From Pseudomonas maumuensis (lineage in GTDB: Bacteria > Pseudomonadota > Gammaproteobacteria > Pseudomonadales > Pseudomonadaceae): a DNA stretch of 64,000 bases. Positions 390-41,634 of the stretch are shown here, piece by piece (within the stretch, counting starts at the first letter, position 1; every line of letters begins with the position of its first letter). Location of the stretch: contig NZ_CP077077.1 of the NCBI RefSeq assembly GCF_019139675.1, forward strand, positions 2,604,001-2,668,000, given 5' to 3'. Made by a program: the position numbers and the translations under genes. The notes under the pieces were generated by a model that was not told where the DNA came from, searched no databases, and saw nothing but the letters and a program-made list of their open reading frames with translations.

Positions 390-3300
390 ATGCTCTTCAG
401 CGAACTCATGGCAGTGCTCTCCACCCGTGCAATCCGACTCCTGCGCGAGGAGGCCGACCTGATCGTCGAGGGCGATGACGGCACCCTCGATGACGCGCTG
501 TGGGACGCACTGGCGGCTCACAAGCCAGCGCTGCTGGAGATGCTCGCGGGACTGGAGGACGGTTGGCTGAGTCCGGCGTTTCGCATCACCCCCGACATGT
601 TGCCCCTGGCCGGGCTCGATCAGGCTGCCATCGACCGTATCGTCGCCACCGTGCCTGGGGGCGCGGCGAATCTGCAGGACATCTACCCGTTGGCGCCGCT
701 GCAGGAGGGCATGCTCTACCACCACCTCACGGCCGCGGAGGGCGACCCCTATGTGCTGCAGGCCCAGCTGCGCTTCGCCAGCCCGGCGCACCTGCAGGCG
801 TTCGCCGAGGCGCTCGACTGGGTGATCCAGCGCCATGACATCCTGCGCACGGCACTGGCCTGGGAATACCTGGACCAGCCGCTGCAGGTGGTGTGGCGCA
901 AGGCGCCGCTGGCGTGCGAGGCAGTCGGGATCCTGGACAGTGACGAGCCGCTGGAGCAACTGCGCGCCCGTTTCGACTCGCGCCATTACCGCATGGACCT
1001 GGCCCAGGCCCCCTTGCTGCGCCTGGTGCATGGCCAGGGTCGCGATGGCCGGGTGCAGGGCTTGCTGCTGTTCCACCACACAGTTATGGATCACACCGGC
1101 CTGGACATCGTGCGCCGGGAGATCCACGCCTATCTCGCCGGTGACAGCGAGCGACTGCCAGCCCCGGTACCGTTCCGTGATCTGCTGGCCAGGAGCCGCC
1201 AGGCGCAGGACGAACAGGCCCACGAAGCGTTCTTTGGCGCCATGCTGGCCGATATCGACGCACCGACCCTGGCCTTCGGCGTCCAGGAGGTGGCCGGCCA
1301 GCCCATGGAGGAAGCCCGGATCACCCTGGCGCCCGGCCTCAGCCAACGTCTGCGCGCCCAGGCCCGGTCGCTCGGGGTCAGCCCGGCCAGCATCATGCAT
1401 CTGGGGCTGGCGCGTCTGTTGGGGGCGTGGTCCGGGCGCGAGTCGGTGGTGTTCGGCAGCGTGCTGCTGGGGCGCATGGCGGCGGGCGAGGGCGGCGAAC
1501 ACGCCCTCGGGATGTTCATCAATACCTTGCCGCTGCGTGTCGATCTGCAGGGGCAGGGTGTGCGGGATGCACTGTTGCTGACCCACCGCCAGCTGACGAC
1601 ATTGCTCGACCATGAACAGGCGCCGCTGGCCCTGGCTCAGCGTTGCAGCGCTGTGGTGGCGCCGATGCCACTGTTCAACAGCATGCTCAACTATCGCCAC
1701 AGCGCCGCAGGCGACGCCGCTGCGGTTATCGCGGTAGCTCCGGGCATCGATGTGGTCGGCACCGAGGAGCGCACCAACTATCCCTTCAACCTGGCGGTCG
1801 ATGACCTGGGTGAAGACCTGCGCCTGACGGTCCAGGCCCTCGCCGAATGGGGTGCCGAACGACTTTGCGGGCAACTGCGACAGGTGTTCGAGGGGCTGGT
1901 GGAGGCGCTCGAGCGCACCCCCGATCTGCCCGTGCTGGCGCTGCCGGTGCTGCCGCCCGAGGAGCGTCATCGACTGCTGACCGGCTGCAACAATACGGCC
2001 ACCGAACACGACCTCGATCAGCCGCTGCACGCATTGTTCGAGCGCCAGGCGCTGCTGCATCCGCAGGCGGTGGCCGTGGAGGCGGAAGGTGAACGGTTGT
2101 CCTATCGCCAGCTCAACGAACAGGCCAACCGCCTGGCCCATCATTTGATCGCGCTGGGTGTGCGCCCCGACGACCGGGTGGCGATCTGCCTCGAGCGTGG
2201 CCCGTCGATGGTGGTCGGCCTGCTGGCCATCCTCAAGGCCGGTGGCGCCTATGTGCCGGTGGACCCAAGCTACCCCGCCGAGCGCATCCGCCACATGCTC
2301 GCCGACAGCGCGCCGCTGGCGGTGCTGGTGCATGCCGCCACCCGCGAGGTGCCAGGCCAGTTGGCCGTGCCGCGGGTCGACCTTGACCGACCTGACTGGG
2401 AAACCCTGCCAGCGACCGATCCCCGGGTGTCGGAACTGACCCCGCGGCATCTGGCCTATGTAATCTACACCTCCGGTTCCACCGGCCAGCCCAAGGGGGT
2501 GATGGTCGAGCACCGCAGCGTGGTCAACCTGGTGCAGTGGAGTGCCGGGCTATGTCCAGCGACTGCGGACGGCGCGGTGTTGCACAAGACCCCGATCAGT
2601 TTCGACGCCTCGGTGTGGGAGCTGTTCTGGCCGCTGGGCAGCGGCCTGCGCCTGGTGCTGGCGCGGCCGGACGGCCAGCGTGACGCGGACTATGTGGCGC
2701 GGCGGATCATCGAGTCCAGGGTCAGCGTGGTGCAGTTCGTGCCGGCGCTGCTGCAACAGTTCCTCGAGCAGGCGCGCAGCGCGCAGTGCAGCAGCCTCAC
2801 CGACATCGTCTGCGGCGGTGGCGAGCTGACCGAAGCCCTGGTGCGCCAGGTACGCGAGCGCCTGCCGCAGGTGCGCCTGCACAACGTCTACGGCCCCACC
2901 GAAACCACGGTCGATTGCAGCGTCTGCACCCTGGAGCCCGATCAGCCCGTGCCGGAAGGCGCGCTGCCGATAGGCCGGCCGATCGACAACACTCGCCTGT
3001 ACGTACTGGACGGCGCGGACCAGCCGCTGCCCTGGGGCGTGGCCGGGCACCTGCACATCGGTGGCGTGGGGGTAGCGCGTGGCTACCTGGGCTTGGCCGA
3101 GCAACAGGCCGAACGCTTCATCGACAGCCCGTTCGTGCGCGGCGAGCGCCTGTACCGCAGCGGTGACCTGGTGCGCCAGCGCGCTGACGGTTCGTTGCAG
3201 TTCCTCGGTCGCAACGACCACCAGGTCAAGCTGCGCGGCCTGCGTATCGAACCGGGCGAGATCGAAGCCTGCCTGAACCGCGTGGACGGCGTGCGCGAGG

Positions 3301-6300
3301 CGCTGGTGCTGGTCCACGAACACCCGCACAGCGGCCAGCGGCTGGTGGCCTACCACACTGGCCAGGATCACGCCGCGCAGTACCTGCGCGAGCGTCTGCT
3401 GGAGCAGCTGCCGGAATACATGGTGCCGGCACTGTTCATCCACCTCGATGGCATGCCGCTGACGCCCAACGGCAAGGTCGACCGCAAGGCCCTGCCGACC
3501 CCCGAAGCGCCGGTGCGCCAGTACCAGGCGCCCCAGGGCCCGATCGAGACTGCCCTGGCGACGATCTGGGCGGACCTGCTGGGTGTCGGGCCAGTGGGGC
3601 GTGACGACAACTTCTTCGAGTTGGGCGGCCATTCGCTGCTGGCGGTACGCTTGGTGGAGCGCATGCGCCAGCAGGCGCTGGCGGCCGATGTGCGGGTGCT
3701 GTTCAGCCAGCCCACGCTGGCCGCGTTGGCGGCGTCTGTGGGTGGCCAGGCCGCCGTCGAGGTGCCGGCCAACCGTATCCCGGCAGGCTGCACGCGGATC
3801 ACCGCGGACATGCTGCCCCTGGCCGGCCTCGACCAGGACGCCATCGACACACTGGCGCGGCAGATCCCCGGTGGCGCGGCCAATATCCAGGACATCTACG
3901 GTCTGGCGCCGTTGCAGCAGGGCATTCTCTATCATCACCTGGCCAGCGAAGGCGCCGACCCCTATGTGGTGCAGGCGCGTTTCGCCTTTGCCGGGCAGGC
4001 CGAGCTGGACGCCTTCGTCGCCGCGCTGAACCAGGTCATCGCCCGTCACGATATCCTGCGCACCAGCCTGCATTGGCAGGGCCTTGACGAGGCGGTGCAG
4101 GTGGTCTGGCGCGAGGCGCCGCTGCTGCTGAGCCCGGCGCTGGAAACGCCACGGCTCGACCTCGGCCAGGCACCCTTGCTGCGCCTGAGCAGCCAGCGCC
4201 AGGCCGGACGCCTGGAGGCGACCCTGCTGCTGCATCATATTCTTGTCGACCACACCGCCGTGGAGCAGCTGATGCTCGAGGTGGGGGCACTACTGCAAGG
4301 CTCCGCAGAGCTGCCGGCCAGTATCCCGTATCGCAACTACGTGGCCCAGGCACGCCTTGGCGCGGACCCTCAGGCCGACGAAGCACTGTTCCGCGAGCTG
4401 CTGGGCGATATCGACGAACCGACCGAAGCATTCGGCCTGCGCGAGGCGATGGCCGAGGTACATTCGCTGGGTGAAAGCCGCTGGCCATTGGAGCCGGCGC
4501 TGGTCGCACGCCTGCGCGGGCAGGCCAGGGCGCTGGGGGTCAGTGTCGCCAGCCTGGTACACCAGGCCTGGGGCCAGGTGCTGGCGCAGATGTCCGGACG
4601 CGAAGAGGTGGTGTTCGGCACCGTGCTGCTCGGTCGCCTGCAGGGCGGCGAGGGCGCCGACCGGGCGCTGGGCATGTTCATCAATACCTTGCCGCTGCGA
4701 GTCAGCGTGGGGGCTGCAGGCGTGGCCGAGGGCGTGCGCCTGACCCACCAGCGTCTGGCGCGCCTGCTGGCCCATGAACAGGCCTCCCTGGCCCTGGCCC
4801 AGCGCTGCAGCGGCGTGCCGGCCTCGCAGGCGCTGTTCAGCAGCCTGCTGAACTATCGCCACAGTGCTGGCCAGCCTGCGCAGGGGCCGGTCTGGGCGGG
4901 GATCGAACTGCTGGCCGCGCAGGAGCGCAGCAACTACCCGCTGGTGGTCAGCGTCGATGACTATGGGGATGATTTGCGGTTGACGGTGCAGGCCGTGGCG
5001 TCGGTTGATGGCGAGCGCGTGTGCCGCTTGCTGCAGTGGGCCTTGACGCAGTTGGTCACGGCGCTGGAACAGGCGCCGCAGGTCGCGCTGCACAGCCTGC
5101 ATGGGTTGCCCACGGTCGAGCGCGATTGCGTGCTGGGTCGCTTCAATGCCACGGCACGCGACTACCCGCGCGACCTGGCCGCCCACCGGCTGTTCGAAGC
5201 CCACGCCACGAGCACGCCCGAGGCACTCGCGGTGATCCACGGTGAACACCAGTGGAGCTATGCCCAGCTCGATGACCAGGCCAATCGCCTGGCAGTCTAC
5301 CTGCTCGAGCAGGGCATGCGTGCCGGTGATCGCGTGGCCTTGCTGCTGCCACGCTCCTTCGACCTGTTGGCGTCCCAGTTGGCGGTGAGCAAGTGTGCGG
5401 CAGTGTTCGTGCCGCTGGACGGCAATGCCCCGGTCGAACGTCAGGCGTTCATGGTCGCCGACAGCGGGGCGGCGTTGCTGCTCACCCACAGCGACCAGCC
5501 CGAAGTGGCGGGCGCGCGCCGGATCGAACTCGACCGGCTCGACCTGAGCACCTATGCGGCTGCGCCGCTGGGGTTGGCGGTGGACGCCGGCAGCGCGGCG
5601 TACATCATGTACACCTCCGGCTCCACCGGCACGCCGAAGGGCGTGCAGGTGCCGCACCGGGCTATCGTGCGCCTGGTGATCAACAACGGTTTTGCCGACT
5701 TCAACCACCAGGACCGGGTGGCGTTCGCCTCCAACCCGGCGTTCGACGCCAGCACCCTGGAAGTCTGGGCGCCGCTGCTCAACGGCGGCGCGGTGGTAGT
5801 GATCGACCAGGACACGGTGCTGTCGCGCCAGGGCCTGCGCGAAGTGCTGCTGGATCAGGGCGTCACCGTGCTGTGGCTGACCGCAGGCCTGTTCCACCAG
5901 TTCGCTGACGACCTGCTGCCGGCGTTGCGTGGCCTGCGTTACCTGATGGTCGGTGGCGACGTGCTGGACCCGGCAGTGATCGCCCGGGTGCTGCGCGATG
6001 GCGCGCCGCAACACCTGCTCAATGGCTACGGCCCGACCGAGGCCACCACCTTCAGCACCACCCACGAAATCACTGCGGTGGGTGAGGGCAGCATTCCCAT
6101 CGGCAAACCGATCGGCAACAGCCGCTGCTACGTGCTCGATGCCCGCCAGCAACTGCTGCCGGTAGGAGCGGTGGGCGAGCTGTACATCGCTGGCGACGGC
6201 GTGGCCCTGGGTTACCTGGGCCAGCCAGAGCTGACGGCCGAGCGCTTCCTGCCCGATCCGTTCAACGGCGGCACCATGTACCGCAGTGGTGACCTGGTCA

Positions 6301-9300
6301 GTTGGCAGGCCGACGGCACCCTGCGTTACCTGGGCCGTGCCGACCAGCAAATCAAGCTGCGCGGCTTCCGCATCGAACTGGGCGAAATCGAGGCGCGCCT
6401 GGGCGAATGCCCGGGCGTGCGCGACGCGGCGTTGATCGTGCGCGAAGACGCGCCGGGAGACAAACGCCTGGTGGCGTACTTCACCGGCGAGATCCCGGCC
6501 ATCGGCGAACTGCACGAGCGTCTGCAAGGTGTGCTGCCGGACTACATGCTGCCGTCGGCTTATGTGCGACTTGAAGCCTTGCCATTGACCGCCAACGGCA
6601 AGCTCGACCGCCGTGCGCTGCCGCAGCCGGGCAGCGAAGCCGTGGTCAGCCGCGCCTTCGAGGCGCCGCAGGGCGAGGTGGAGACGGCACTGGCCACGAT
6701 CTGGGCCGAGGTGCTCAAGGTCGAGCAGATCGGTCGCCAAGATCACTTCTTCGAACTGGGCGGCCACTCGCTGCTGGCGGTGAGCCTGGTCGAGCGCATG
6801 CGCAAGGCCGGCCTGGCTGCCGATGTGCGCGTGCTGTTCGCCCAGCCGACCCTAGCCGCGCTGGCGGCGGCGGTGGGCTCTGGACGAGAGGTGGCCGTAC
6901 CCGAAAACCGTGTCCCCCACGATGCGATCCGGATTACGCCAGAGATGCTCAGCCTGATCGAACTGGACCAGGCCAGCATCGACCGCATCGTCGCCAGCGT
7001 GCCGGGCGGCGCTGCCAATGTGCAGGAGATCTACCCGCTGGCGCCGTTGCAGGCGGGCATCCTCTATCACCACCTGAGCGCCGAGCAGGGCGACCCGTAC
7101 CTGCTGCAGTCGCGCCTGGCCTTTGACAGCCTCGAGCGCCTGCGTAGCTGGGCAGCGGCCTTGCAACAGGTCATCGACCGCCACGACATCCTGCGCACTT
7201 CGGTGGTCTGGGAAGGCCTGGCGGAACCAGTGCAGGTGGTCTGGCGCCAGGCCAACCTGGCGGTAAGCGAAGTCACCGGCCTGGGTGAGGAGTTCGTGAT
7301 CGAGCAGTTGCTGGCGCGTTTCGATGCCCGCCAGCAGCGTCTGGACCTGACCCGGGCGCCCTTGCTGCGGCTGGTCTATGCCGAGGATCCGCGCCAGGGC
7401 GAGTGGGTGGCGCTGTTGCAGTTCCACCACCTGACCCTCGACCACGCCGCCATGGCCGTGGTCGGCGAGGAGATGCAGGCGCTGCTGGATGGGCGTGGCG
7501 CCACGCTGCCTGCCGCGGTGCCGTATCGCAATTATGTCGCCCAGGTCTGCCTGGGCGCCGATCAGGCCAGCCATGAGGCGTTCTTCCGCGCCCAGTTGGG
7601 GGATGTCGACGAACCGACCCTGCCCTTTGGCCTGGCCGATGTGCAGGGCGATGGCGGGCGGGTCGAGCATGCCGCCCTGATGCTGCCTGACGCCCTGGCC
7701 CAAGGCCTGCGCGAGCAGGCCCGGCAGCGCGGCGTCAGCGCCGCGAGCCTGGTGCATCTGGCCTGGGCCCGGGTGGTGGGCGTGCTGGCAGGGCGTCGCG
7801 ATGTGGTGTTCGGCACCGTATTGATGGGCCGCCTGCAAGCCGGCGAGGGCGCCGACCGCGCCCTGGGCATGTTCATCAACACCCTGCCACTGCGGGTGGA
7901 CACCGCGCTGCCGCTGGAGCAGGCCGTGCGCGTCACTCATCAGCGCTTGTCGGCCCTGCTCGGTCACGAGCATGCGCCCTTGGCGCTGGCCCAGCGTTGC
8001 AGTGGGGTGGCAGCCTCGTCGCCACTGTTCAGCGCTTTGCTCAACTACCGGCACAGCGCCGAGGCAGCGGCCCGGGACGGTGAAGGTATCTGGCAGGGTG
8101 TGCGCCTGCTGGGCGGCGAGGAGCGCAGCAACTACCCGCTGACCCTGAGCGTCGATGACCTGGGCGAGGGTTTCTCGCTGAGCGTGCTGGCCGCCGAGGG
8201 GTTGCCCGCGGCGCAGGTCGGCACGTGGATGGTCAATACGCTAGGCCAGCTGTTGCAGGCGCTGGAGCGGGCGCCGGGCCAGGGACTCGATCATCTGCCG
8301 ATGCTGGATGACGAGGCTTTGCGCCAGATTGTGGAGGGCTTCAACGCCACTGCCGTCAATTATCCGCAAGGGCACACCGTGCATGCGCTGGTCGAGGCCC
8401 AGGCGCCCGAGGCGCTGGCCGTGGTGCAGGGCGAGGAGGGCTTGAGCTATGGCGAGTTGAACCTGCGCGCCAATCGCCTGGCTCATCACCTGATCGAGCG
8501 TGGCGTGGTGCTGGGCGACCGCGTTGCGCTGTGCCTGCCGCGCGGTCCGCAGCGGCTGGTGGCGATGCTGGCCGTGCTCAAGGCCGGCGCGGCCTATGTG
8601 CCGGTCGATCCGGGCTATCCGGCGGAGCGCATTGCCTATTTGCTCAGTGACAGCGCGCCGACGCTGGTGCTGGTCGAATCGAGTACTGAGTCGCTGGTGG
8701 GCGAGGTGGCCAAGGTTGTGCTGGATGGCGATGACTGGGCTCATGAAGCCGACAGCAACCCTGTCGTCACCGGTCTGGATGCGGACCAGCTGGCCTATGT
8801 GATCTACACCTCCGGTTCCACCGGCCAGCCCAAGGGGGTGATGGTCGAGCATCGCACCTTGGCCAACCTGGTCCACTGGCATTGCCAGGCCTTCGATCTG
8901 GGCGCCGGCAGCCACACCTCCAGTGTCGCCGGCTTCGGCTTCGACGCCATGGCCTGGGAGGCCTGGCCGGCGCTGTGCGCCGGGGCGGTGCTACACCTGC
9001 CGCCGGCGCAGATCGGCGGTGAACATGTCGATGAGCTGCTCGACTGGTGGCTGCAGCAGCCGCTGCAGGTCAGCTTCCTGCCGACCCCGGTGGCCGAGCA
9101 GGCGCTGCGCCGCGAACGCCAGCACCCGACCCTGCGCACCTTACTGGTCGGTGGTGATCGCTTGCGCCAGTTCGACCGCGATCCGGGCTTCGTGCTGGTC
9201 AACAACTACGGCCCGACCGAGACCACGGTGGTCGCGACGTCCGGTCAACTGCAACCGGGCGGCGCACTGCATATCGGCAAGCCGACCGCCAATACCCGTG

Positions 9301-12300
9301 TCTATGTGCTGGATGAGCAGCACCAGCCGGTGCCGGTCGGTGTGACCGGCGAGCTGTACATCGGTGGCGCGCAGGTCGCCCGTGGCTACTTCAACCGCCC
9401 CGACCTTACCGCCGAGCGTTTCCTCGACGACCCGTTCGCCGCAGGCCGGATGTACCGTACCGGCGACCTGGTGCGCTGGAACGCCGACGGCACCCTGGAC
9501 TACCAGGGGCGCAACGACGACCAGGTGAAGATCCGCGGCGTGCGGGTCGAACTGGGCGAGATCGAGGCCGCGCTCAAGGCCCAGCCGGGCATCGCCGATG
9601 CCGTGGTGCTGGTACGCGACGAGCGCCTGCTGGCGTGGTTTACCGAAGCGGCAACGGTCGATATCGAGCGCCTGCGCGAGGGCTTGCAGGCCAGCCTGCC
9701 GGCGCATCTGCTGCCGCAAGCCTTGGTGCGCCTGAACGCACTGCCACTGACCAGCCACGGCAAGCTAGACCGCAAGGCGCTGCCGCAACCGGCCATGCTT
9801 GCCGCTCAGGACTACGTTATGCCGCAAGGTCCTGTGGAAACCGCCATCGCCGCGCTCTGGGCCGAGGTGCTGGGTATCGAGCAGGTTGGTCGCCACGACA
9901 ACTTCTTCGAACTGGGCGGCCACTCGCTGCTGGCGGTGACCCTCACCGCGCGCCTGCGCCAGGCCGGCCTGCAGGCCGACGTGCGCACCCTGTTCGGCCA
10001 GCCGACGGTGGCGGCGCTGGCGGCGACCCTGGGCCAGGGCCATCAGGTCGAGGTCCCGGCCAACCGGATCCCGGCCGGCTGCACCCGGATCACCCCGGAC
10101 ATGCTGCCCCTGGTGGAGCTGGAACCGGCCGCCATCGAGCGCATCGTCGCCACGGTGCCGGGCGGCGCGGCCAACGTGCAGGACATCTACCCGTTGGCGC
10201 CGTTGCAGGAGGGCATCCTCTACCACCACCTCAGCTCGCCGGAGCGCGACCCCTATGTGCTGCAATCGGCCATAGCCTTCGACAGCCTGGCGCGGCTCGA
10301 AGCCTTCGCCGGTGCGCTGCGCCGGGCCATTGCCCGCTACGACGTGCTGCGTACCGCCGTGCTCTGGGAGGGCCTGGCGCAACCGCTGCAGGTGGTTTGG
10401 CGCGAGGCGCCGTTGCTGGTCGCACCGCTCGAAGGGCAGGACCTGCAACGCCTGGACCTGAGCCAGGCACCGCTGATTCGCCTGCTGTACAGCGCCGATG
10501 CCGGCAGCCAACGGGTCGAGGCACTGCTGCAGTTCCACCATATCGTCCTCGACCACACCGCCCTGGAGATCATCGGCGCGGAACTGCTGGGCTACCTGCA
10601 AGGCACCACGGCACCGCTGCAGGCCCCGGTGCCTTACCGCAACTACGTGGCCCAGGCGCGCCTGGGCGTGAGCCAGGCCGAGCACGAGGCGTTCTTCCGT
10701 GAACTGCTGGGTGATATCGACGAGCCGACGCTGCCCTATGGCCTGAGCGACGTGCAGGGCGATGGCCAGGCTATCGAGGAAGCCCAGCTGTGGCTCGACG
10801 AGACGCTGGCCGCGCGGCTGCGCCAGCAGGCCCGGCAACTGGGCACCAGCCCCGCGAGCCTGTTCCACCTGGCCTTCGCCCGCCTGCTGGCCGCCACCAG
10901 TGGCCGCGACAGCGTGGTGTTCGGCACCGTGCTGCTGGGCCGGCTGGAGGCCGGCGAGGGTGCCGAGCGGGCGCTGGGCATGTTCATCAATACCCTGCCG
11001 CTGCGCCTGGACCTGCAGGGCGCGGCCCTGCCCGAAGCGGTGCGCCAGACCCAGCAGCGCCTGAGCGCATTGCTGGTCCACGAGCACGCGTCGCTGGCCT
11101 TGGCCCAGCGTTGCAGCGGCGTACCGGCGCCGGCGCCGCTGTTCAGCGCCATGCTCAACTACCGCCACGGCCAGGAGGCCAGCGAAGCCCGGCGCCTGGA
11201 CTGGCAGGGCATCGAGTTCCTCGACGGCCAGGAGCGCAGCAACTACCCGCTGAGCCTCAGCGTGGACGACATGGGCCAAGGGTTCCGCCTGGTGGCCATG
11301 ACCCCGGCGGCGGTTGGCGCCCAGCGGGTCTGCGGGCAGCTGCGGCAGGTACTGCTGGCGTTGGTCGAAGGCCTGGAGGCACAAGCCGGGCAGACGGTGC
11401 TACAACTGCCGGTGCTGCAGGACGAGGAACGCGCCTACCTGTTGCAGGGCTGCAACGCCACGGCGCGGGCCAATGATTCCGAGCAGCCGATCCAGGCGCT
11501 GTTCGAGCGGCAGGCAGCACGCGTCCCCGAAGCGATTGCCGTGCATGCTGAAGCGGGGCAACTGAGCTACCGCGAGCTCAACGCCCAGGCCAACCGCCTG
11601 GCGCATCACCTGATCGCGCTGGGCGTGCAGCCCGATGACCGGGTGGCGATCTGCGTCGAGCGCGGCCTGTCATTGGTGATCGGCCTGCTGGCGATCCTCA
11701 AGGCCGGTGGCGCCTATGTACCGCTCGACCCGGACTATCCGGCTGAGCGCCTCGGCCACATGCTCGCCGACAGCCAGCCGCGGGCATTGCTGGTGCAACA
11801 GGCGACCCGCGCCCTGGTGGGTTCGTCGGCGACGTTGGTCGACCTCGATCAGTCGACTTGGGGCGACCTGCCGGACAGCAATCCGCAGGTGCCTGGCCTG
11901 ATTTCGCAGCACCTGGCTTACGTGATCTACACCTCTGGCTCTACTGGCGTGCCCAAGGGGGTGATGGTCGAGCACCGCAACGTGGTCAACCTGGTGCATT
12001 GGAGCGCCGGGCTGTTCCCGAGCGAAGGCGCGGTGCTGCACAAGACCCCGGTGAGCTTCGACGCCTCGGTGTGGGAGCTGTTCTGGCCGCTGTGCAGCGG
12101 GCTGCGCCTGGTGCTGGCGCGTCCGGATGGCCAGCGCGACCCGCAGTACCTGGTGGGGCTGATCGAACGGCAGCAGGTGAAGGTGGTGCAGTTCGTGCCG
12201 GCCTTGCTGCAGCAATTCCTCGACGAGGACGCCAGCGCCGCCTGCGCCAGCCTTACCGACATCGTCTGCGGTGGTGGCGAGCTGACCGAAGCCCTGGCCC

Positions 12301-15300: not shown

Positions 15301-18300
15301 GGCACCGCGCCCCCGAGTACCTGCGCGAGGTGATCCGCGCCGAGCAGGTCAGCACCTTGCACTTCGTGCCGTCGATGCTCGATGTGTTCCTCGCCCATGG
15401 CGATGTCCTGCCGCACCGCCTCAAGCGCGTGCTGTGCAGTGGCGAAGCCTTGCCGGGTAGCCTGGTGCGGCGCTTCCAGGCACAACTGCCGACGGTCGAG
15501 CTGCACAACCTGTACGGCCCGACCGAAGCGGCGGTGGACGTCAGTGCCTGGCACTGTGTGACGGCGCCGGACAACACGCCGATCGGCAAGCCGATCGCCA
15601 ATACCACGCTGTACGTGCTTGATGCCCACGGCCAGCCCGTGCCGCGGGGCGTGGCCGGCGAGCTGTACATCGGCGGCGTTCAGGTGGCGCGTGGCTACCT
15701 CAACCGCGAGCAACTGACGGCCGAGCGCTTCCTCGACGACCCGTTCGGCACCCGCCCGGGCGGGCGTCTGTACCGCACCGGCGACCTGGCGCGGCACCTG
15801 GCCGACGGCAACCTGGAGTACCTGGGGCGCAACGACGACCAGGTGAAGCTGCGTGGCCTGCGCATCGAGCTGGGCGAAATCCAGGCTTGCCTGACCCGTG
15901 TCGAAGGGGTCAAGGAAGCCGTGGTGCTGGCTCGCGAGCAGCGCCTGCTGGCCTACTACACCGGTACACGGCAGGCGCCGGAGGCCTTGCGCGCGGCACT
16001 GCTCGGCCAATTGCCGGAGTTCATGGTGCCTGCCTCGTTCACCTACCTCGAGGCGCTGCCGCTGAGCCCCAACGGCAAGCTGGACCGCAAGGCGCTGCCG
16101 CAGCCAGAGGCGCCGCAGCAGGTCTACGAGGCGCCGCAAGGCGAGGTCGAGACGCTGTTGGCGCACCTCTGGCGTGAGTTGCTGGGTGTCGAACAGGTCG
16201 GTCGCCACGACAACTTCTTCGAGCTCGGCGGCCATTCGCTGCTGGCCGTGACCCTGACCGCGCGCATGCGCCAGGCGGGCCTGGCGGCGGATGTGAGGGT
16301 GCTGTTCGGCCAGCCGACCCTGGCGGCGCTGGCGGCGGCGGTGGGCGGCGAAGTGATGGTGGAAGTGCCGGCCAATCGCATCCCGGCCGACTGCCAGCGC
16401 ATCACCGTCGATATGCTGCCACTGGCGAAACTGGACCAGGCGGCGCTCGACCAGGTCGTGCGGCAGATCCCCGGCGGCGCGGCGAATGTCCAGGACCTCT
16501 ATGCCCTGGCGCCGTTGCAGCAGGGCATTCTCTACCACCACCTGGCCAGCGCCGAGGTCGACCCCTATGTGCTGCAACTGGGCTTCGCCTTCGCTGGCCA
16601 GGCCGAGCTGGACGCCTTCGTCGCCGCGCTGAACCAGGTCATCGCCCGTCACGACATCCTGCGCACCAGCGTGCATTGGCAGGGGCTCGATGAGGCCGTG
16701 CAGGTGGTCTGGCGCGAAGCGCGCCTGGACATCCAGCCGGCACTGGACAGCGTGCGCCTGGACCTGGGGCGCGCGCCCCTGATGCACCTGAGCAGCAGTG
16801 TGGAGCATGGCCGCCTGCAGGCGACCCTGCTGCTGCACCATATCCTCCTCGACCACGCCGCCATGGAGCTGCTGGTGGCGGAGGTCGGCGATGTGCTGCT
16901 GGGTCGCGAGGCTCAGGGCGACAGCGTGCCGTACCGTAACTATGTGGCCCATGCGCGACTGCGCGACGACAGTCAGGCGCAGGAGGCGATGTTCCGCCAG
17001 CTGCTGGGCGATATCGATGCGCCGACCGAGGTATTCGGCCTGCGTGACGCGCTGGGCGATGGCAGCCATGTGCTCGATCATCGCCAGTACCTGGACGACA
17101 GCCTGGCGCAACGCTTGCGCGGTCAGGCGCGGGCGCTGGGGATCAGTGTCGCCAGCCTGGTGCACCAGGCCTGGGGGCAGGTGCTGGCGCAGTTGTCCGG
17201 CCGCGAGGAGGTGGTCTTCGGCACCGTGCTGCTCGGCCGCCTGCAAGGCGGCGAGGGTGCCGAACGGGCGCTGGGCATGTTCATCAACACCCTGCCGTTG
17301 CGGGTCAGCGTGGGTGACATGGACGTGGTCGAGGGCGTGCGCCTGACCCATCAGCGCCTGGCGCGGCTGCTGGCCCATGAGCAGGCCTCCCTGGCCCTGG
17401 CCCAGCGCTGCAGCGGTGTACCGGCCTCACAGGCTTTGTTCACCAGCCTGCTGAACTACCGCCACAGTGCGGCTGGCGGCACGGAGCAGGCCCAGGCCTG
17501 GCAGGGGATCGAACTGCTGGCCGCCCATGAGCGCAGCAACTACCCGCTGGTGGTCAGCGTCGACGACCTGGGGGATGGCTTCGCCCTCACCGTGCAAGCG
17601 GTGTCGGCTGTGGACGGCGGCTTGGTCTGCCAGCTGTTGCAGGAGGCCCTGGCGCGCTTGGTCGAGGCGCTGGCGGATACGCCGGCAACGCCACTGAGCC
17701 GGCTGCATGGCTTGCCGGCAGCCGAGCGCGAGCGGGTGCTGCGCCAATTCAACGTCACCGCGCGCGATTATCCACGCGATCTGCCCGTGCATGTGTTGTT
17801 CGAGGCGCACGCCAAGGCCAGCCCGGACGCACTGGCGGTGGCCCATGGCACAAGGCGCTGGAGTTACCAGGCCCTCGACCGGCAGGCCAATCGGCTGGCC
17901 GGGTATCTGCTGGAACTGGGCGTGCGTGCCGGTGATCGCGTGGCCTTGCTGCTGCCACGCTCCTTCGACCTGTTGGCGGCCCAACTGGCGGTGAGCAAGT
18001 GCGCGGCAGTGTTCGTGCCGCTGGACGGCAATGCCCCGGTCGAACGTCAGGCGTTCATGGTCGGTGACAGCGGAGCGGCGTTGCTGCTGACCCACAGCGA
18101 CCAGCCCGAAGTGGCGGGCGCGCGCCGGGTCGAACTCGACCGGCTCGACCTGAGCACCTATGCCGCTGCGCCGCTGGGCCTGGCGGTGGACGCCGGCAGC
18201 GCGGCGTACATCATGTACACCTCCGGCTCCACCGGTACGCCGAAGGGCGTGCAGGTGCCGCACCGCGCCATCGTGCGGTTGGTGGTCAACAACGGCTTCG

Positions 18301-21300
18301 CCGATTTCAACAACCAGGACCGCGTGGCTTTCGCCTCCAACCCGGCGTTCGACGCCAGCACCCTGGAGGTCTGGGCGCCGTTGCTCAACGGCGGCGCGGT
18401 GGTGGTGATCGACCAGGACCAGGTGCTGTCGCGCCAGGGCCTGCGCGAGGTGCTGCTGGAGCAGGGCGTGACGGTGCTGTGGCTGACCGCAGGCCTGTTC
18501 CACCAGTTCGCTGACGACCTGCTGCCAGCGTTGCGTGGCCTGCGTTACCTGATGGTCGGTGGCGATGTGCTGGACCCGGCGGTGATCGCCCGGGTGCTGC
18601 GCGATGGCGCGCCGCAACACCTGCTCAATGGCTACGGCCCGACCGAGGCCACCACCTTCAGCACCACCCACGAAATCACCGCGGTGGGTGAGGGCAGCAT
18701 TCCCATCGGCAAACCGATCGGCAACAGCCGCTGCTACGTGCTCGATGCCCGCCAGCAACTGCTGCCGGTAGGGGCGGTGGGCGAGTTGTACATCGCCGGC
18801 GACGGCGTGGCCCTGGGTTACCTGGGCCAGCCGGAGCTGACGGCCGAGCGCTTCCTGCCGGATCCGTTCAATGGCGGCACGATGTACCGCAGTGGCGACC
18901 TGGTCAGCTGGCAGGCCGACGGCACCTTGCGTTACCTGGGCCGTGCCGACCAGCAAATCAAGCTGCGCGGCTTCCGCATCGAACTGGGCGAAATCGAGGC
19001 GCGCCTGGGCGAATGCCCGGGCGTGCGCGACGCGGCGGTGATCGTGCGCGAAGACGCGCCGGGGGACAAACGCCTGGTGGCGTACTTCACCGGCGAGACC
19101 CCGGCCATCGGCGAACTGCACGAGCGTCTGCAAGGTGTGCTGCCGGACTACATGCTGCCGTCGGCTTATGTGCGACTTGAAGCCTTGCCATTGACCGCCA
19201 ACGGCAAGCTCGACCGCCGTGCGCTGCCGCAGCCAGGCAGCGAGGCCGTGGTCAGCCGCGGCTTCGAGGCGCCGCAGGGCGAGGTGGAGACGGCACTGGC
19301 CGCGATCTGGGCCGAAGTGCTCAAGGTCGAGCAGATCGGTCGCCACGACCACTTCTTTGAGCTGGGCGGCCACTCGCTGCTGGCGGTGAGCCTGGTCGAG
19401 CGCATGCGCAAGGCCGGGCTGGCTGCCGACGTGCGCGTGCTGTTCGCCCAGCCGACCCTGGCCGCGCTGGCCGCGGCAGTGGGCTCTGGACGAGAGGTGG
19501 CCGTACCCGAGAACCGTGTCCCCCACGATGCGACCCGCATCACGCCAGAGATGCTCAGCCTGATCGAACTGGACCAGGCCAGCATCGACCGCATCGTCGC
19601 CAGCGTGTCGGGTGGCGCCGCCAACGTGCAGGAGATCTACCCGCTGGCGCCATTGCAGGAAGGCATCCTCTATCACCACCTGAGCGCGGAGCAGGGTGAC
19701 CCCTATCTGCTGCAGACCCGCCTGGCCTTCGACAGCCTGGAACGGCTGCAAGCCTGTGCCGGTGCCTTGCAACAGGTTATCGACCGCCACGACATCCTGC
19801 GCACTTCGGTGGTCTGGGAAGGTTTGGCGGAGCCGGTGCAGGTGGTCTGGCGCCAGGCCCGCCTGGCGGTCAGCGAGGTCACTGGGCTGGGCGAGGAGGC
19901 GGTGATCGAGCGCCTGCACGATCATTTCGACGCACGCTCGCAGCGCCTGGACCTGACCCAGGCGCCACTGCTGCGCCTGACCTACGCCATGGACCCGGCC
20001 GGGCAGCGCGTGGTCGCGGTGCTGCACTTCCATCACCTGGCCCTGGACCACACTGCGATGGAGGTCATTGTCCATGAAATGCAGGCGTTGCTGTCCGTTC
20101 GCCAGCACCTGCTGAGCGCACCCGTGCCGTACCGCACCTACGTGGCCCAGGTACGCCTGGGCGCCGCCGAGGCGGGGCACGAGGCGTTCTTCCGCGACAT
20201 GCTCGGCGATGTCGACGAGCCGACCCTGCCCATGGGCCTGGCCGATGTACAGGGCGACGGGCGTGATATCGAGGAAGCCCGCGTGCCACTGGACCCAGCC
20301 TTGTCGCGCCGGGTGCGCGAACAGGCGCGGGCGCAGGGTGTCAGCGCCGCGAGCCTGATGCACCTGGCCTGGGCCCGCGTGGTCGGCGTGCTGGCGGGGC
20401 GTCACGACGTGGTGTTCGGCACCGTGCTGATGGGCCGCCTGCAGGGCGGCGAGGGCGCCGACCGTGCGTTGGGCGTGTTCATCAATACCTTGCCGTTGCG
20501 CATCGACACGGCCAAGGGGGCCAGTGACGCGGTACGGCTCACCCACCAGCGGTTGTCGGCGCTGCTTGGGCATGAACACGCGTCGCTGGCCCTGGCCCAG
20601 CGTTGCAGTGGCGTGGCCGCCTCGTCGCCGTTGTTCAGTGCTTTGCTCAACTACCGTCACAGTCCGCTTGATGCAGCTGCAGTGGATAGCGATAGCTTCC
20701 AGGGCATGCACCAGTTGGGCGGCGAGGAACGCAGCAACTACCCACTTACCCTGAGCGTGGACGACCACGGCGAAGGCTTCACCCTGAGCGTGCTGGCCCT
20801 GTTGGGGATCGGCGCCGAGCGAGTCGCGGGCTGGATGAACGCGGCTGTGGCCGGGCTGATCCTGGCGTTGGAGCAAGGTGGCGCGGTGCAGGTCGACACA
20901 TTGCCCATCCTCGATCACACAGCGCTGGGCCAAGTGCTCGAAGGCTTCAATGCCACGGCTGCGAGCTACCCGCTGGGGCACACCGTTCACGCGCTGGTCG
21001 AGGCCCAGGCGCCCGAGGCGCTGGCCGTGGTGCAGGGCGAGGAGGGCTTGAGCTATGGCGAGTTGAACCTGCGCGCCAATCGCCTGGCCCATTACCTGAT
21101 CAAGCGTGGCGTGGCGCTGGGCGACCGTGTCGCGCTGTGCCTGCCGCGCGGTCCGCAGCGGCTGGTGGCGATGCTGGCCGTGCTCAAGGCCGGCGCGGCC
21201 TATGTGCCGGTCGATCCGGGCTATCCGGCGGAGCGCATTGCCTATCTGCTCAGTGACAGTGCGCCGACGCTGGTGCTGGTCGAATCGGACACTGAGTCGC

Positions 21301-24300
21301 TGGTGGGCGAGGTGGCCAAGGCCGCACTGGACAGCGATGAGTGGCTGGACCAAGCCGATGACAATCCGGTTGTCCAGGGCCTGGACGAGCATCAACTGGC
21401 CTATGTGATCTACACCTCCGGTTCCACCGGTCAGCCCAAGGGGGTAATGGTCGAGCATCGCACCTTGGCCAACCTGGTCCACTGGCATTGCCAGGCCTTC
21501 GACCTGGGCGCCGGCAGCCACACCTCCAGCGTCGCCGGCTTCGGCTTCGACGCCATGGCCTGGGAGGCCTGGCCGGCGCTGTGCGCCGGGGCGGTGCTGC
21601 ACCTGCCGCCGGCGCAGATCGGCGGTGAACATGTCGATGAGCTGCTCGACTGGTGGCTGCAGCAGCCGCTGCAGGTCAGCTTCCTGCCGACCCCGGTGGC
21701 CGAGCAGGCGCTGCGCCGCGAACGCCAGCACCCGACCCTGCGCACGCTGCTGGTCGGTGGTGATCGCCTGCGCCAGTTCGACCGCGATCCGGGCTTCGTG
21801 CTGGTCAACAACTACGGCCCGACCGAGACCACGGTGGTCGCGACGTCCGGTCAACTTCAGCCAGGCGGCGCGTTGCATATCGGCAAGCCGACCGCCAATA
21901 CCCGCGTCTATGTGCTGGATGCGCAGCGCCAACCGGTGCCGGTCGGCGTGACCGGCGAGCTGTACATCGGTGGCGCGCAGGTCGCCCGTGGCTACTTCAA
22001 CCGCCCCGACCTTACCGCCGAGCGTTTCCTCGACGACCCGTTCGCCGCTGGCCGGATGTACCGCACCGGCGACTTGGTGCGCTGGAACGCCGACGGCACC
22101 CTGGACTACCAGGGGCGCAACGATGACCAGGTGAAGATCCGCGGTGTGCGGGTCGAACTGGGCGAGATCGAGGCCGCGCTCAAGGCCCAGCCGGGCATCG
22201 CCGATGCCGTGGTGCTGGTACGTAACGAGCGTTTGCTGGCGTGGTTCACCGAAACCGCGGTGGTCGATCTCGACACCTTGCGCCAAGGGTTGCAAGCCAG
22301 CCTTCCAGGGCACTTGATACCGCAGGCCTTCGTCCGCCTGGACGCGCTGCCACTGACCAGCCACGGCAAGCTGGACCGCAAGGCGCTGCCGGATCCCGAT
22401 CCCTCGGCCCTGGTTCGCCAAGCCTATGTCGCGCCTAGCGGTGCTTCCGAGGTGGCAATAGCCGCGATCTGGGCCGAAGTGCTGGGTATCGAGCAGGTCG
22501 GTCGCCACGACAACTTCTTCGAACTCGGCGGCCACTCGCTGCTGGCGGTGACCCTCACCGCGCGCCTGCGCCAGGCCGGCCTGCAGGCCGACGTGCGCAC
22601 CCTGTTCGGCCAGCCGACGGTGGCGGCGCTGGCGGCGACCCTGGGCCAGGGCCATCAGGTCGAGGTCCCGGCCAACCGGATCCCGGCCGGCTGCACCCGG
22701 ATCACCCCGGACATGCTGCCCCTGGTGGAGCTGGAACCGGCCGCCATCGAGCGCATCGTCGCCACGGTGCCGGGCGGCGCGGCCAACGTGCAGGACATCT
22801 ACCCGCTGGCGCCGTTGCAGGAGGGCATCCTCTACCACCACCTCAGCTCGCCGGAGCACGACCCCTACGTGCTGGCCTCGCGCATGGCGTTCGCCAGCCA
22901 CGAACGCCTGCGCGCCTTCGTCGATGCCCTGGGCAAGGTGATCGCCCGCCACGACGTGCTACGCACCTCGGTGCTGTGGGACGGCCTGCCGCAGGCGGTG
23001 CAGGTGGTGTGGCGCCAGGCCGCTCTGGCGGTGTTCGAGGTGGCGGATGAAGCCGCGGTGCCTTACGCCCTGGCCCTGGAACAGGCCCCTTTGGTGCGTC
23101 TGTATCACTGGCCGGACGCGCAAGGTCCAGGGTTGCTGGCCGCGTTGCAGTTCCACCATATCGTCCTCGACCATACCGCCCTGGATGTACTGGGCCGCGA
23201 GTTGGTCGGTTACCTGCAGGGCGAGGTGGTGCCCGCCGGGCAGGGCGCGCCGTACCGCAACTACGTGGCCCAGGCGCGCCTGGGCGTGAGCCAGGCCGAG
23301 CACGAGGCGTTCTTCCGCGAGCAACTGGGCGATATCGACGAGCCGACCTTGCCTTACGGCCTGGGCGACGTGCAGGTCGATGGCCAGGGCATCGAAGAGG
23401 CCCAGCTATGGCTGGACGCGGCCCTGTGCGCAGACCTGCGGCAACAGGCCCGGCAGTTGGGCGTCAGCGTCGCCAGCCTGTTCCACCTGGCCTACGGCCG
23501 TCTGCTGGCCGCCACCAGCGGCCGCGACAGCGTGGTGTTCGGCACCGTGCTGCTGGGCCGACTGGAGGCTGGCGAGGGCGCCGAACAGGCCTTGGGCATG
23601 TTCATCAACACCCTGCCGCTGCGCCTGGACCTGCAGGCCGCGACCCTGCAGGAGGCGGTGCATCAGACCCAGCAGCGCCTCAGCGCCTTGCTCGCCCACG
23701 AACACGCTTCGCTGGCCCTGGCCCAGCGCTGCAGCGGCGTACCGGCACCGGCGCCACTGTTCAGCGCGATGCTCAACTACCGTCACGGCTCCCAGGCGGA
23801 CGAGGCCCAGCGCCTGGCGCTGCAGGGTATCGAGACCCTGCAGAGCAACGAGCGCAGCAACTATCCGCTGAGCCTGAGCGTGGACGACATCGGTGCAAGC
23901 TTCCGTTTGGTGGCCCTGGCCCCGGCGGCGGTCGGCGCCGCGCGGGTCTGCGAGCAGCTGCGGCAGGTGCTGCAGGCCATGGTCGAAGCGCTGGCACGCG
24001 AGCCACGCCACGCGTTGCTGCAACTGCCGGTACTGTCGCTCGATGAGCGCCGTCAGCTGCTGCACGACTGCAACCGCACGGCGCGGCCTCACGACCTGAC
24101 TCAGACCCTCCAGGCGCTGTTCGAGGCCCAGGCCCTGCGTACGCCCGAGGCCGTGGCCATCTGCGCGGAGCAGGGTGAGCTGAGTTATATCCAGCTCAAT
24201 GCCGAGGCCAACCGCCTGGCGCATCACCTGATCACACTGGGCGTGCAGCCCGATGACCGGGTGGCGATCTGCGTCGAGCGCGGCATGCCGCTGCTGGTCG

Positions 24301-25834
24301 GCCTGCTGGCGATCCTCAAGGCCGGTGGCGCCTACGTGCCGCTCGACCCGGACTATCCGGCCGAGCGCCTCGGCCACATGCTTGCCGACAGCCAGCCGCG
24401 GGCGCTGTTGGTGCATCAGGCCACCCGGGCCCTGGTGGGTTCGTCGGCGACGTTGGTCGACCTCGATCAGCCGACTTGGGGCGACCTGCCGGACAGCAAT
24501 CCGCAGGTGCCTGGCCTGACCTCGGAGCACCTGGCCTATGTGATCTATACCTCCGGCTCTACTGGCGTGCCCAAGGGGGTGATGGTCGAGCACCGCAACG
24601 TGGTCAACCTGGTGCACTGGAGCGCCGGGCTGTTCCCGAGCGAAGGCGCGGTGCTGCACAAGACCCCGGTGAGCTTCGACGCTTCGGTGTGGGAGCTGTT
24701 CTGGCCGCTGTGCAACGGGCTGCGCCTGGTGCTGGCGCGCCCGGATGGCCAGCGCGACCCGCATTACCTGGCCGAGCTGATCGAGCGGCAACAAGTCGGC
24801 GTCGTGCAGTTCGTGCCGGCGTTGCTGCAGCAATTCCTCGACGAGGACGCCAGCGCCGCCTGCGCCAGCCTTACCGACATCGTCTGCGGTGGTGGCGAGC
24901 TGACCGAAGCCCTGGCCCGCCAGGTACGCGAGCGCTTGCCGCAGGTGTACCTGCACAACGTCTATGGCCCGACCGAAACCACGGTCGACTGCAGCGTCTG
25001 GACCCTGAAAGCGCGGGATCCGCTGCCGTCCGGAGCGCTGCCGATCGGCCGGCCGATCGACAACACCCGCCTGTACGTCCTCGACGCCCATGACCAGCCC
25101 GTGCCGTTCGGCGTTGCCGGTCAGTTGCACATCGGCGGGGCCGGGGTGACGCGGGGCTACCTGGGCTTGCCGGAGCAACAGGCCGAGCGTTTCATCGCCA
25201 GCCCGTTCGTTGGCGGTGAGCGTCTGTACCGCAGTGGCGACCTGGTGCGCCAGCGCCAGGACGGCGTGCTGGAGTTCCTCGGCCGCACCGACCACCAGAT
25301 CAAGCTGCGCGGCCTGCGTATCGAGCCGGGCGAGATCGAAGCCTGCCTCACCCATGTGGCCGGGGTGCGCGAAGCCGTGGTGCTGGTGCATGACGCCCAG
25401 CCGGCCGGCCCGCGCCTGGTGGCCTATGTCACCGGCGAAGTGCCGCCGGCCGAGGCCCTGCGTGAGGCGTTGCTCGGGCAGCTGCCGGAATACATGGTGC
25501 CCGCATTGTTCATTCCGCTGCCGGCCCTGCCGCTGACCGCCAACGGCAAGCTCGACCGCAAGGCGCTGCCGGCAATTGACCTGCCGACCCGCGACTACGA
25601 GGCGCCAGCCGGCGATACCGAACAGCTGCTGGCGCGGATCTGGAGCGAGCTGCTGGGCGTGGAGCGGGTAGGGCGCCATGACAACTTCTTCGAACTGGGC
25701 GGCCACTCGCTGCTGGCGGTGACCCTCACCTCGCGCCTGCGCGAAGCAGGCCTGGAGGCCGACGTGCGCAGCCTGTTCGAACACCCGACGCTGGCAGGCT
25801 ATGCCGCCATCACAGACAGAATGGAGATCGTCCT

Positions 25835-25838
<4 letters not shown>
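390..25838 (+). CDS. xtlB: Non-ribosomal peptide synthetase XtlB, eight C-A-T modules (xantholysin residues 3-10)
   Basis: This giant cytoplasmic multienzyme adds eight residues to a growing lipopeptide. An N-terminal stretch of about 50 residues resembles a TubC-type docking domain. Eight condensation-adenylation-carrier modules follow (about aa 67-8471), each with a TSGSTG core, NGK and LGGHS carrier motifs. The pocket residues predict Gln-Val-Leu-Gln-Ser-Val-Leu-Gln, exactly xantholysin positions 3-10. The condensation domains have HH-L near the N terminus and HHxxxDH, the dual condensation/epimerisation type, so upstream residues should be D. There is no loading domain and no thioesterase, so it needs an upstream two-module partner (XtlA, not in the window) and XtlC downstream. 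The start is ATG 390 with AGGA 9 nt upstream; ATG 408 lacks a site. The stop overlaps the xtlC start. Modules 5-8 repeat 1-4. Entolysin synthetase has the same 2-8-4 layout but a different order. Confidence 0.93.
588..3750 (+). other. XtlB module 1 (C-A-T), predicted Gln, residue 3
   Basis: The condensation domain carries YHHL near its N terminus (about 718) and HHTVMDH (about 1075). The adenylation core IYTSGSTG lies near 2463. Pocket residues read D-A-W-Q-V-G-V-V-D-K, a Gln-type code. The carrier motif FFELGGHS is near 3613. The dual-type condensation domain would epimerise residue 2, delivered by the missing XtlA. Confidence 0.8.
3796..6880 (+). other. XtlB module 2 (C-A-T), predicted Val, residue 4
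   Basis: The condensation domain has YHHLASEGADP (about 3928) and HHILVDH (about 4234). MYTSGSTG is near 5608. Pocket residues read D-A-L-W-M-G-G-T-F-K, a Val code. FFELGGHS is near 6747. The adenylation domain is almost identical to that of module 6. Confidence 0.8.
6934..10033 (+). other. XtlB module 3 (C-A-T), predicted Leu, residue 5
   Basis: The condensation domain has YHHLSAEQGDP (about 7063), a full HH-L-x4-GD dual-type signature, and HHLTLDH (about 7425). TSGSTG is near 8807. Pocket residues read D-A-W-F-L-G-N-V-V-K, a Leu code. FFELGGHS is near 9904. The adenylation core matches module 7 with no amino-acid change over roughly 180 residues. Confidence 0.82.
10091..13200 (+). other. 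XtlB module 4 (C-A-T), predicted Gln, residue 6
   Basis: The condensation domain has YHHLSSPERDP (about 10220) and HHIVLDH (about 10537). TSGSTG is near 11932. Pocket residues read D-A-W-Q-V-G-V-V-D-K, Gln. The A10 motif is NGKLERKA, with Glu in place of the usual Asp. FFELGGHS is near 13067. Confidence 0.8.
13254..16350 (+). other. XtlB module 5 (C-A-T), predicted Ser, residue 7, with an altered condensation motif
   Basis: The N-terminal condensation motif reads LYLHLSSADADP (about 13385): the first His of the usual HH is Leu (CTG). The second motif HHIVLDH (about 13699) is intact. TSGSTG is near 15097. Pocket residues read D-V-W-H-L-S-L-V-D-K, a Ser code. FFELGGHS is near 16213. Ser7 is the residue whose hydroxyl closes the ring in xantholysin. 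Confidence 0.82.
16401..19485 (+). other. XtlB module 6 (C-A-T), predicted Val, residue 8
   Basis: The condensation domain has YHHLASAEVDP (about 16536) and HHILLDH (about 16837). TSGSTG is near 18214. Pocket residues read D-A-L-W-M-G-G-T-F-K, Val, as in module 2. FFELGGHS is near 19353. Confidence 0.8.
19541..22645 (+). other. XtlB module 7 (C-A-T), predicted Leu, residue 9
   Basis: The condensation domain has YHHLSAEQGDP (about 19670) and HHLALDH (about 20029). TSGSTG is near 21416. Pocket residues read D-A-W-F-L-G-N-V-V-K, Leu. FFELGGHS is near 22516. It lies 12,606-12,612 bp from the matching bases of module 3. Confidence 0.82.
22700..25800 (+). other. XtlB module 8 (C-A-T), predicted Gln, residue 10
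   Basis: The condensation domain has YHHLSSPEHDP (about 22832) and HHIVLDH (about 23153). TSGSTG is near 24553. Pocket residues read D-A-W-Q-V-G-V-V-D-K, Gln. FFELGGHS is near 25685. A short tail follows the carrier domain (ITDRMEIVL), presumably the contact to the XtlC docking domain. Confidence 0.8.
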
Positions 25839-40369
<14,531 letters not shown>

Positions 40370-40446: not shown

Positions 40447-40477
40447 GGACCTCATCGGATTGTGGAAGAACGGTTTT

Positions 40478-41632: not shown

Positions 41633-41634
41633 GC

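Follow-up and report, generated by a model that had tools for sequence, protein, structure and literature searches.

Within-genome homogenization of adenylation domains and position-specific condensation domains in a xantholysin-type synthetase gene of Pseudomonas maumuensis

Xantholysin of Pseudomonas putida BW11M1 is described, in the sections of PMC3656897 that deal with the genes, as the product of three nonribosomal peptide synthetases (NRPS), an eight-module XtlB, a four-module XtlC and a two-module XtlA encoded at an unlinked locus, with exporter genes located downstream of the C gene. Here, we analyze a 64,000-nucleotide stretch of the Pseudomonas maumuensis genome (hereafter, the window, G000:C1:2604001-2668000; the host genome, G000, is a single contig of 5.76 Mb), in which an open reading frame (ORF) at 390..25838 of the plus strand, with an ATG start and 8482 codons for amino acids, encodes an xtlB-type NRPS with eight modules, each consisting of a condensation (C), an adenylation (A) and a thiolation (T) domain. 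With BW11M1, as portrayed in those sections of PMC3656897, the genes analyzed here share the module counts, the predicted residue order, a candidate unlinked two-module A gene and exporters 3' of the C gene. The likeness of modules 2-4 to modules 6-8 of the xtlB gene has been taken, in a sequence-only reading of the window, for a tandem copy of modules 1-4; we conclude instead, with a probability of about 0.85, that it goes back to an old three-module duplication and was maintained by gene conversion between A domains of like specificity, with no recent copying of modules 1-4.

The process itself is already known for NRPS and polyketide synthase (PKS) genes, and xtlB is a clear, well-resolved new case. 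According to the relevant part of PMC4256081, concerted evolution makes domains of one type from the same cluster branch together, whereas those of the other type do not (AT but not KS domains in some clusters), and PMC9205934, in its passages on the subject, likewise treats concerted evolution as an NRPS and PKS process. The clusters named in that part of PMC4256081 are daptomycin-type, glycopeptide, syringopeptin and PKS clusters, not xantholysin, and the xtlB tracts differ in being bounded at the level of single bases. Recombination of A domains independent of C domains, with hotspots between the C and A domains and around the binding pocket, is described in PMC7486941 and PMC8097286, where, in the portions bearing on this point, it is presented as a route to product diversification; the exchanges in xtlB, in contrast, would be like-for-like and leave the product unchanged. 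For Pseudomonas mosselii Gil3, the account of LP10b in PMC9948697 mentions an xtlB gene without modules 5-8 and "presumptive duplications" in Pseudomonas lipopeptide genes; near-identical A domains within one gene are read there as duplication, and the age of the duplication is not separated from homogenization. The main text of PMC3656897 contains no word starting with "duplicat", and the conflict between A and C domains is not treated in the parts of that paper considered here. Among the titles and abstract openings listed in searches of the open-licence PMC literature, none deals with gene conversion in the xantholysin synthetase genes.

The repeat within xtlB and its homogenized tracts

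With module bounds placed 45 codons beyond the start of the carrier motif and residues read from the substrate codes, the gene consists of module 1 (Gln, 390-3755), module 2 (Val, 3756-6890), module 3 (Leu, 6891-10046), module 4 (Gln, 10047-13211), module 5 (Ser, 13212-16358), which sits between the two Val-Leu-Gln blocks, module 6 (Val, 16359-19496), module 7 (Leu, 19497-22658) and module 8 (Gln, 22659-25838), all on the plus strand. Domain bounds were derived from a single full-module alignment of 111 modules, the C, A and T domains being also recognized by Pfam within 390-13000; a structure search confirmed the A-domain family, and nothing further was taken from it. Read with code positions and residue meanings that in part are our assumption, the codes give Q-V-L-Q-S-V-L-Q for the B gene, in which the anticipated order X-Val-Leu-Gln indeed occurs twice, and L-L-Q-I for the C gene, in agreement with the published prediction for xantholysin. 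Given these codes and the 2-8-4 modules in the A, B and C genes, with the A gene (a candidate) unlinked, xtlB is best explained as encoding the eight-module elongating synthetase (residues 3-10) of a predicted lipopeptide of the xantholysin type.

Among identical 16-mers in window positions 1-40000, the most frequent distances are 12,606 (1759 pairs), 12,618 (727) and 12,612 bp (316), followed by 3,126 bp (121); the first three join modules 2/6, 3/7 and 4/8, so that the constant offsets reported from the sequence alone are borne out. The identity between the copies is a mosaic, ranging from 53% to 100% per 150-nucleotide (nt) step within modules 2-4, and in modules 1/5 lies at 41-77%, with a single step at 91%. 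At the nucleotide level, the A-cores of modules 2/6, 3/7 and 4/8 are 91, 94 and 91% identical, and thus as close as had been noticed, and those of modules 1/5 only 70%; the corresponding values for the C domains are 78, 74, 78 and 66%, so that the similarity of C2 and C6, although genuine, is nothing special compared with the other two pairs. The substrate codes are identical between partner modules, and same-substrate A domains outside the pairs are just 69-78% identical (ten comparisons). A1 resembles A4 and A8 (78%), which share its substrate, more closely than it does A5, and module 5 has no near-identical partner module within xtlB or xtlC.

The homogenized tracts were delineated as maximal shared segments, in a GENECONV-like manner, and tested by 1000 shuffles of the site order for each pair. 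The tract in module 2 (5312..6890, plus strand, as are all those that follow) covers most of A2, Asub and T2 and has the same base as its partner in module 6 (17918..19496, offset 12,606) at 362 of 427 polymorphic sites (0/1000 shuffles); here the search halted at the module end, and the 150-nt identity stays near 95% up to about 7000. The tract in module 3 (8372..9614; A3 core and the start of Asub) agrees with its partner in module 7 (20978..22220, offset 12,606) at 303 of 368 sites, and the one in module 4 (11583..12716; A4 core) with its partner in module 8 (24201..25334, offset 12,618) at 334 of 392 sites, in both cases with 0/1000 shuffles. The tracts are 1.1-1.6 kb long, the neighboring DNA is not homogenized, and the 5' ends lie about 10-56 codons inside the A domain, that is, near the C-A border, where a recombination hotspot is placed in the pertinent section of PMC7486941. 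A shorter patch, about 99% alike, spans the end of T3 and the start of the C4 region (9900..10200, approximate bounds) and has its partner at 22512..22812 (offset 12,612). For modules 1/5, a short segment (2102-2353) also yields 0/1000 shuffles, and its best 40-codon window is 88% identical between the copies, compared with 85% for module 1 and 91% for module 5 when each is set against its ortholog in P. peradeniyensis BW13M1; no window of this pair is closer between the copies than to both orthologs.

The first 1.6 kb of xtlB is matched in 125 of the 398 genomes of the genus. Ten further genomes were read, seven from this match list and three others, chosen as near relatives with unbroken genes. 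Eight-module B genes of the xantholysin type are present, besides the window genome, in G102 (P. peradeniyensis BW13M1), G110 and G104, and those of the entolysin type, with the order Q-V-L-Q-V-L-Q-S, in G190 and G127 (P. entomophila COR5); these six genomes provide the trees and counts. Pseudomonas sp. GD04091 (G404), with a one-module B gene, joins one tree, and four genomes of other kinds (G258, G144, G409 and G411) were used in nearest-neighbor lists and distance peaks only.

In the A-core tree, B2 pairs with B6 and B4 with B8 within G000 and within G102, and B3 pairs with B7 within G000, G102 and G110; the placement of B3 and B7 of G104 is not resolved. The closest relative of A-cores 2, 3, 4, 7 and 8 of the window gene is the partner in the same genome, with A6 tied with G102 at 91%, and, overall, the A partners in this genome are 91-94% identical (84-88% at third positions) versus 83-91% (71-81%) for orthologs. 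Clades of orthologous A-cores from the four xantholysin-type genomes are rejected for B3 (p 2e-85), B4 (6e-6) and B2 (0.005), and those of G000 and G102 alone for B3 (3e-6) and B4 (5e-7); several of the groups tested here and below were named after viewing a tree, which makes their p-values optimistic. Third positions are closer between paralogs than to both orthologs in 8 of the 12 A-core cases from the xantholysin-type genomes (all six in G000 and G102, two of six in G110 and G104), in 5/12 cases each for Asub and T, and in none of the 12 for C domains. For the two genomes of the entolysin type, with six pairs counted in each, three of which lie between or involve gene C, the respective numbers are 4/12 for A-core, 9/12 for Asub, 4/12 for T and again 0/12 for C, so that in-genome paralogs closer than between-species orthologs are found for A-cores in both types and for C domains in none of 24 cases.

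Strong selection holding the substrate pockets of the A domains alike, with no conversion involved, would account for the shared codes of partner modules. However, among the 34 forty-codon windows in the three tracts, third positions are at least 87% identical between the copies in 28 and at most 82% identical to the G102 ortholog in 30; protein-level selection, therefore, is no explanation. The other same-substrate A domains in the same genes, at the identities given above, likewise speak against selection alone, which we consider next to impossible and reject.

Part of the homogenization may be younger than the split between the window genome and P. soli LMG 27941, the closest relative found (a draft), to which xtlB is mostly 91-99% identical outside modules 3 and 4: several tract windows are nearer to their own partner than to P. 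soli (98.7 versus 89.3% at 12309). This sign is weak given that the P. soli contig may mix copies.

Position-specific condensation domains and the age of the duplication

In the tree of C domains, sequences from different species cluster by module position. B3 and B7 each form a clade that takes in an entolysin counterpart, and the two unite in a joint clade (100/100); B2, B6 and etlB5 form another (100/100), and B4, B8, etlB7 and etlB8 a third (75/99, not starred). Within the entolysin genes etlB and etlC of P. entomophila, modules 1-4 have C domains that fall with those of xtl modules 1-4, module 6 has one that falls with xtl module 7, and, in the quick tree, module 7 has one that falls with xtl module 8. 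All three C-domain pairs of the window gene are rejected when forced as clades (p 7e-50, 7e-52 and 9e-38), and each of C2, C3, C4, C6, C7 and C8 has its closest relative at the same position in G102. The C and A trees of these genes, then, conflict. Because C domains follow module position across the six genomes, the C3/C7 and C4/C8 splits would be older than the split between xantholysin and entolysin; the clade of xtlB6 with etlB5 is rejected (p 0.013), so that the history of C2/C6 appears less clear and less simple than that of C3/C7.

These trees bear directly on the proposal that modules 1-4 (about 12.6 kb) were duplicated in tandem in a single, fairly recent event, after which the A domain of module 5 would have been swapped for a Ser type. 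Such an event fits the constant offset, with no net insertions or deletions over about 5.3-9.6 kb, the finding that a clade of C1 and C5 is not rejected (p 0.27), and the stretch 582-881 of module 1, which among the ten copies listed is closest to module 5 (79%, with module 4 at 76%). A recent copy, however, predicts that all module pairs and all domains are about equally alike, in particular C pairs as alike as A pairs, and the C domains of modules 2-4 and their partners reach only 74-78% and group by position in other species. Furthermore, the domain-by-domain pairing of modules 1-4 with 5-8 breaks down for the A domains of modules 1/5 (a clade of A1 and A5 is rejected, p 2e-51), and the entolysin-type genes carry the same pairs three modules apart, at about 9.5 kb (the strongest distance peaks in G190 and G127 are 9,495 and 9,498 bp, with more peaks near 9,490), so that the 12.6 kb spacing is merely four module lengths. 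Of the four-module block duplication, what stands is the grouping of the C domains of modules 2-4 with those of modules 6-8; a single event cannot be read from the near-identity, given that C domains group by position over six genomes and many A domains within genomes. We consider a single recent copy very improbable and reject it.

The copied unit was probably the three modules Val-Leu-Gln. An old four-module duplication (1-4 to 5-8), preceding the entolysin split and followed by loss of the module 5 equivalent in entolysin and later A-domain conversion, is also consistent with the retained C1+C5 clade. Against it, C5 joins C4/C8 in the quick tree (98), albeit with no placement in the careful one, and T5 is as near to T2, T3 and T4 (74-76%) as to T1 (74%). 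We regard this as unlikely; as it shares the conversion part with the three-module explanation, the odds of the two overlap. Searched against 144 relatives, the C domain of module 5 was matched in seven, the window genome and six weaker ones, a sample that did not include the xantholysin-type genomes used here and hence is silent on the spread of this domain.

Repeated block-wise unequal crossing-over, that is, gain and loss of whole blocks, could homogenize the copies as well, and loss of a whole block seems to occur, judging by the one-module B gene of GD04091 with its module-1-type C and module-8-type T domains. Yet the C domains that lie between the tracts, namely C3 (7023..8342, plus strand; 74% identical to C7 and 87% to C3 of G102), C4 (10179..11453, plus strand; 78% to C8 and 86% to C4 of G102) and that of module 5, are position-specific in all four xantholysin-type genomes. 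Because these intervening stretches stayed different, block-wise exchange as the main homogenizer appears very improbable, and it is likewise rejected.

Several observations weigh against an old duplication maintained by conversion. G110 and G104 keep A2, A6, A4 and A8 by position, and in these two genomes four of the six A-core cases lack paralogs closer than both orthologs; grouping A2 of G000 with that of G102 in one clade is not rejected (p 0.069); eight of the 12 entolysin-type A-core cases fail the same third-position comparison, although the close kinship of G190 and G127 makes this test a weak one. In about half of the tract windows, identity to the partner does not exceed that to P. 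soli. In some C windows (7155-7274 in C3 and 10938-11057 in C4), the partner reaches or passes the identity of the ortholog; hence, C domains are not wholly exempt from homogenization. The sample consists of six genomes, and the orthologs of each genome were drawn from one neighbor, so that the counts are not independent; conversion itself was not seen happening.

Under the old-duplication explanation, modules 2-4 and 6-8 would descend from duplication of a three-module Val-Leu-Gln stretch, and the A domains of matching modules would later have overwritten each other time and again within single genomes, the tracts being about 1.1-1.6 kb long and beginning near the A-domain start, with the C domains mostly outside the overwriting and retaining their position-specific sequence. 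The molecular act would be non-reciprocal gene conversion of the RecA type, and the events would be near-neutral; the product stays the same because a Val domain is overwritten by another Val domain, and likewise for Leu and Gln. Near-identity of A domains is often taken as a sign of recent module duplication, whereas the neighboring C domains here indicate an old duplication with maintained likeness, which bears on NRPS histories inferred from A-domain trees alone. The tracts also point to natural borders for like-for-like A-domain exchange.

It is conceivable, if at somewhat less than even odds, that in each genome the same-substrate A domains form a pool that exchanges across modules and genes (as in etlB and etlC), with C domains locked to their positions. 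If so, the unit of A-domain inheritance would be substrate identity rather than position, and the C-A border would be a recombination border from which losses of whole blocks, as in the one-module B gene of GD04091, also arise.

Entolysin-type genes, GD04091 and draft assemblies

The entolysin genes differ from xtlB in their residue order, in the spacing of the pairs and in homogenization that also extends across genes B and C. Distance peaks of similar size to the main one in G190 and G127, at 9,608, 12,851 and 22,346-22,349 bp, fit B8/C3, B5/C1 and B2/C1 by module count. In G190, etlB2 and etlC1 (both Val) share 94% identity in the A-core and 64% in the C domain, and etlB8 and etlC3 (both Ser) share 99% and 44%, respectively; over both genomes, the A domains of these two pairs are 94-99% alike and the C domains 43-64%. 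Module 8 of etlB in G190 and G127 combines a C domain of the xtl module 8 group with a Ser-type A domain resembling A5 of xtlB, apparently an A-domain swap behind the published "serine switch".

In GD04091, at about 194-218 kb of contig C45, the one-module B gene is flanked by NRPS genes of two and four modules, the two-module one being an ORF with two carrier motifs directly upstream of B. The C domain of the B gene resembles that of module 1, and from about the C-A border on, the A and T domains resemble those of module 8; the A-core matches modules 4 and 8 about equally well, and in its first part also module 5, so that it is the T domain that decides for module 8. Elsewhere in this genome, there is no close match to module 5 (best 70%). 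A contraction by the equivalent of seven modules is a likelier origin than a short ancestral gene, because the C gene of GD04091 nests inside the xantholysin type, its grouping with entolysin being rejected (p 0.001). The product would probably be linear, as the codes read, namely those of the B and C genes, include neither Ser nor Thr; its predicted sequence, should the two-module A gene load Leu-Glu, is Leu-Glu-Gln-Leu-Leu-Gln-Ile.

In the drafts compared (P. soli, P. mosselii LB-090624, Cy-639 and RIT623; four of the five searched, with G170 left out), contig ends within xtlB fall at most 25 bases from a high-identity zone in 15 of 16 cases, compared with 43% expected by chance, although ends in partner tracts are not mutually independent; in the lone exception (P. 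mosselii, 9843), the compared piece stops 63 bases short of the contig end, and the true end is slightly upstream. Draft assemblies thus break, and may misjoin, inside such tracts. The P. soli contig C4 (12,503 bp, about the repeat period) joins C domains of the module 7 and 8 types to the end of module 4 and module 5, which is either a misjoin or a real rearrangement. Replacement of the whole block in P. soli, where C3 and C4 are missing, was considered and dropped: close matches to C3 and C7 are absent from the drafts G174 and G403 too, so that small contigs are probably missing from the draft sequences searched and no conclusion follows for P. soli. The Gil3 genome is a draft as well (PMC5114387), and we conjecture that a similar misjoin could mimic the loss of modules 5-8 reported for it.

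Of the other genes analyzed, the candidate A gene is an unlinked open frame (G000:C1:2249362-2255799), about 350 kb from xtlB, that contains two carrier motifs and shows similarity to NRPS. In the window, xtlB is followed on the plus strand by an xtlC-type NRPS gene (25835..40369) with four modules (Leu, Leu, Gln and Ile-like) and two Pfam thioesterase stretches and, 3' of it, by exporter genes of the xtlD/xtlE kind (40460..43638), an HlyD-family adaptor and a MacB-type ABC transporter.

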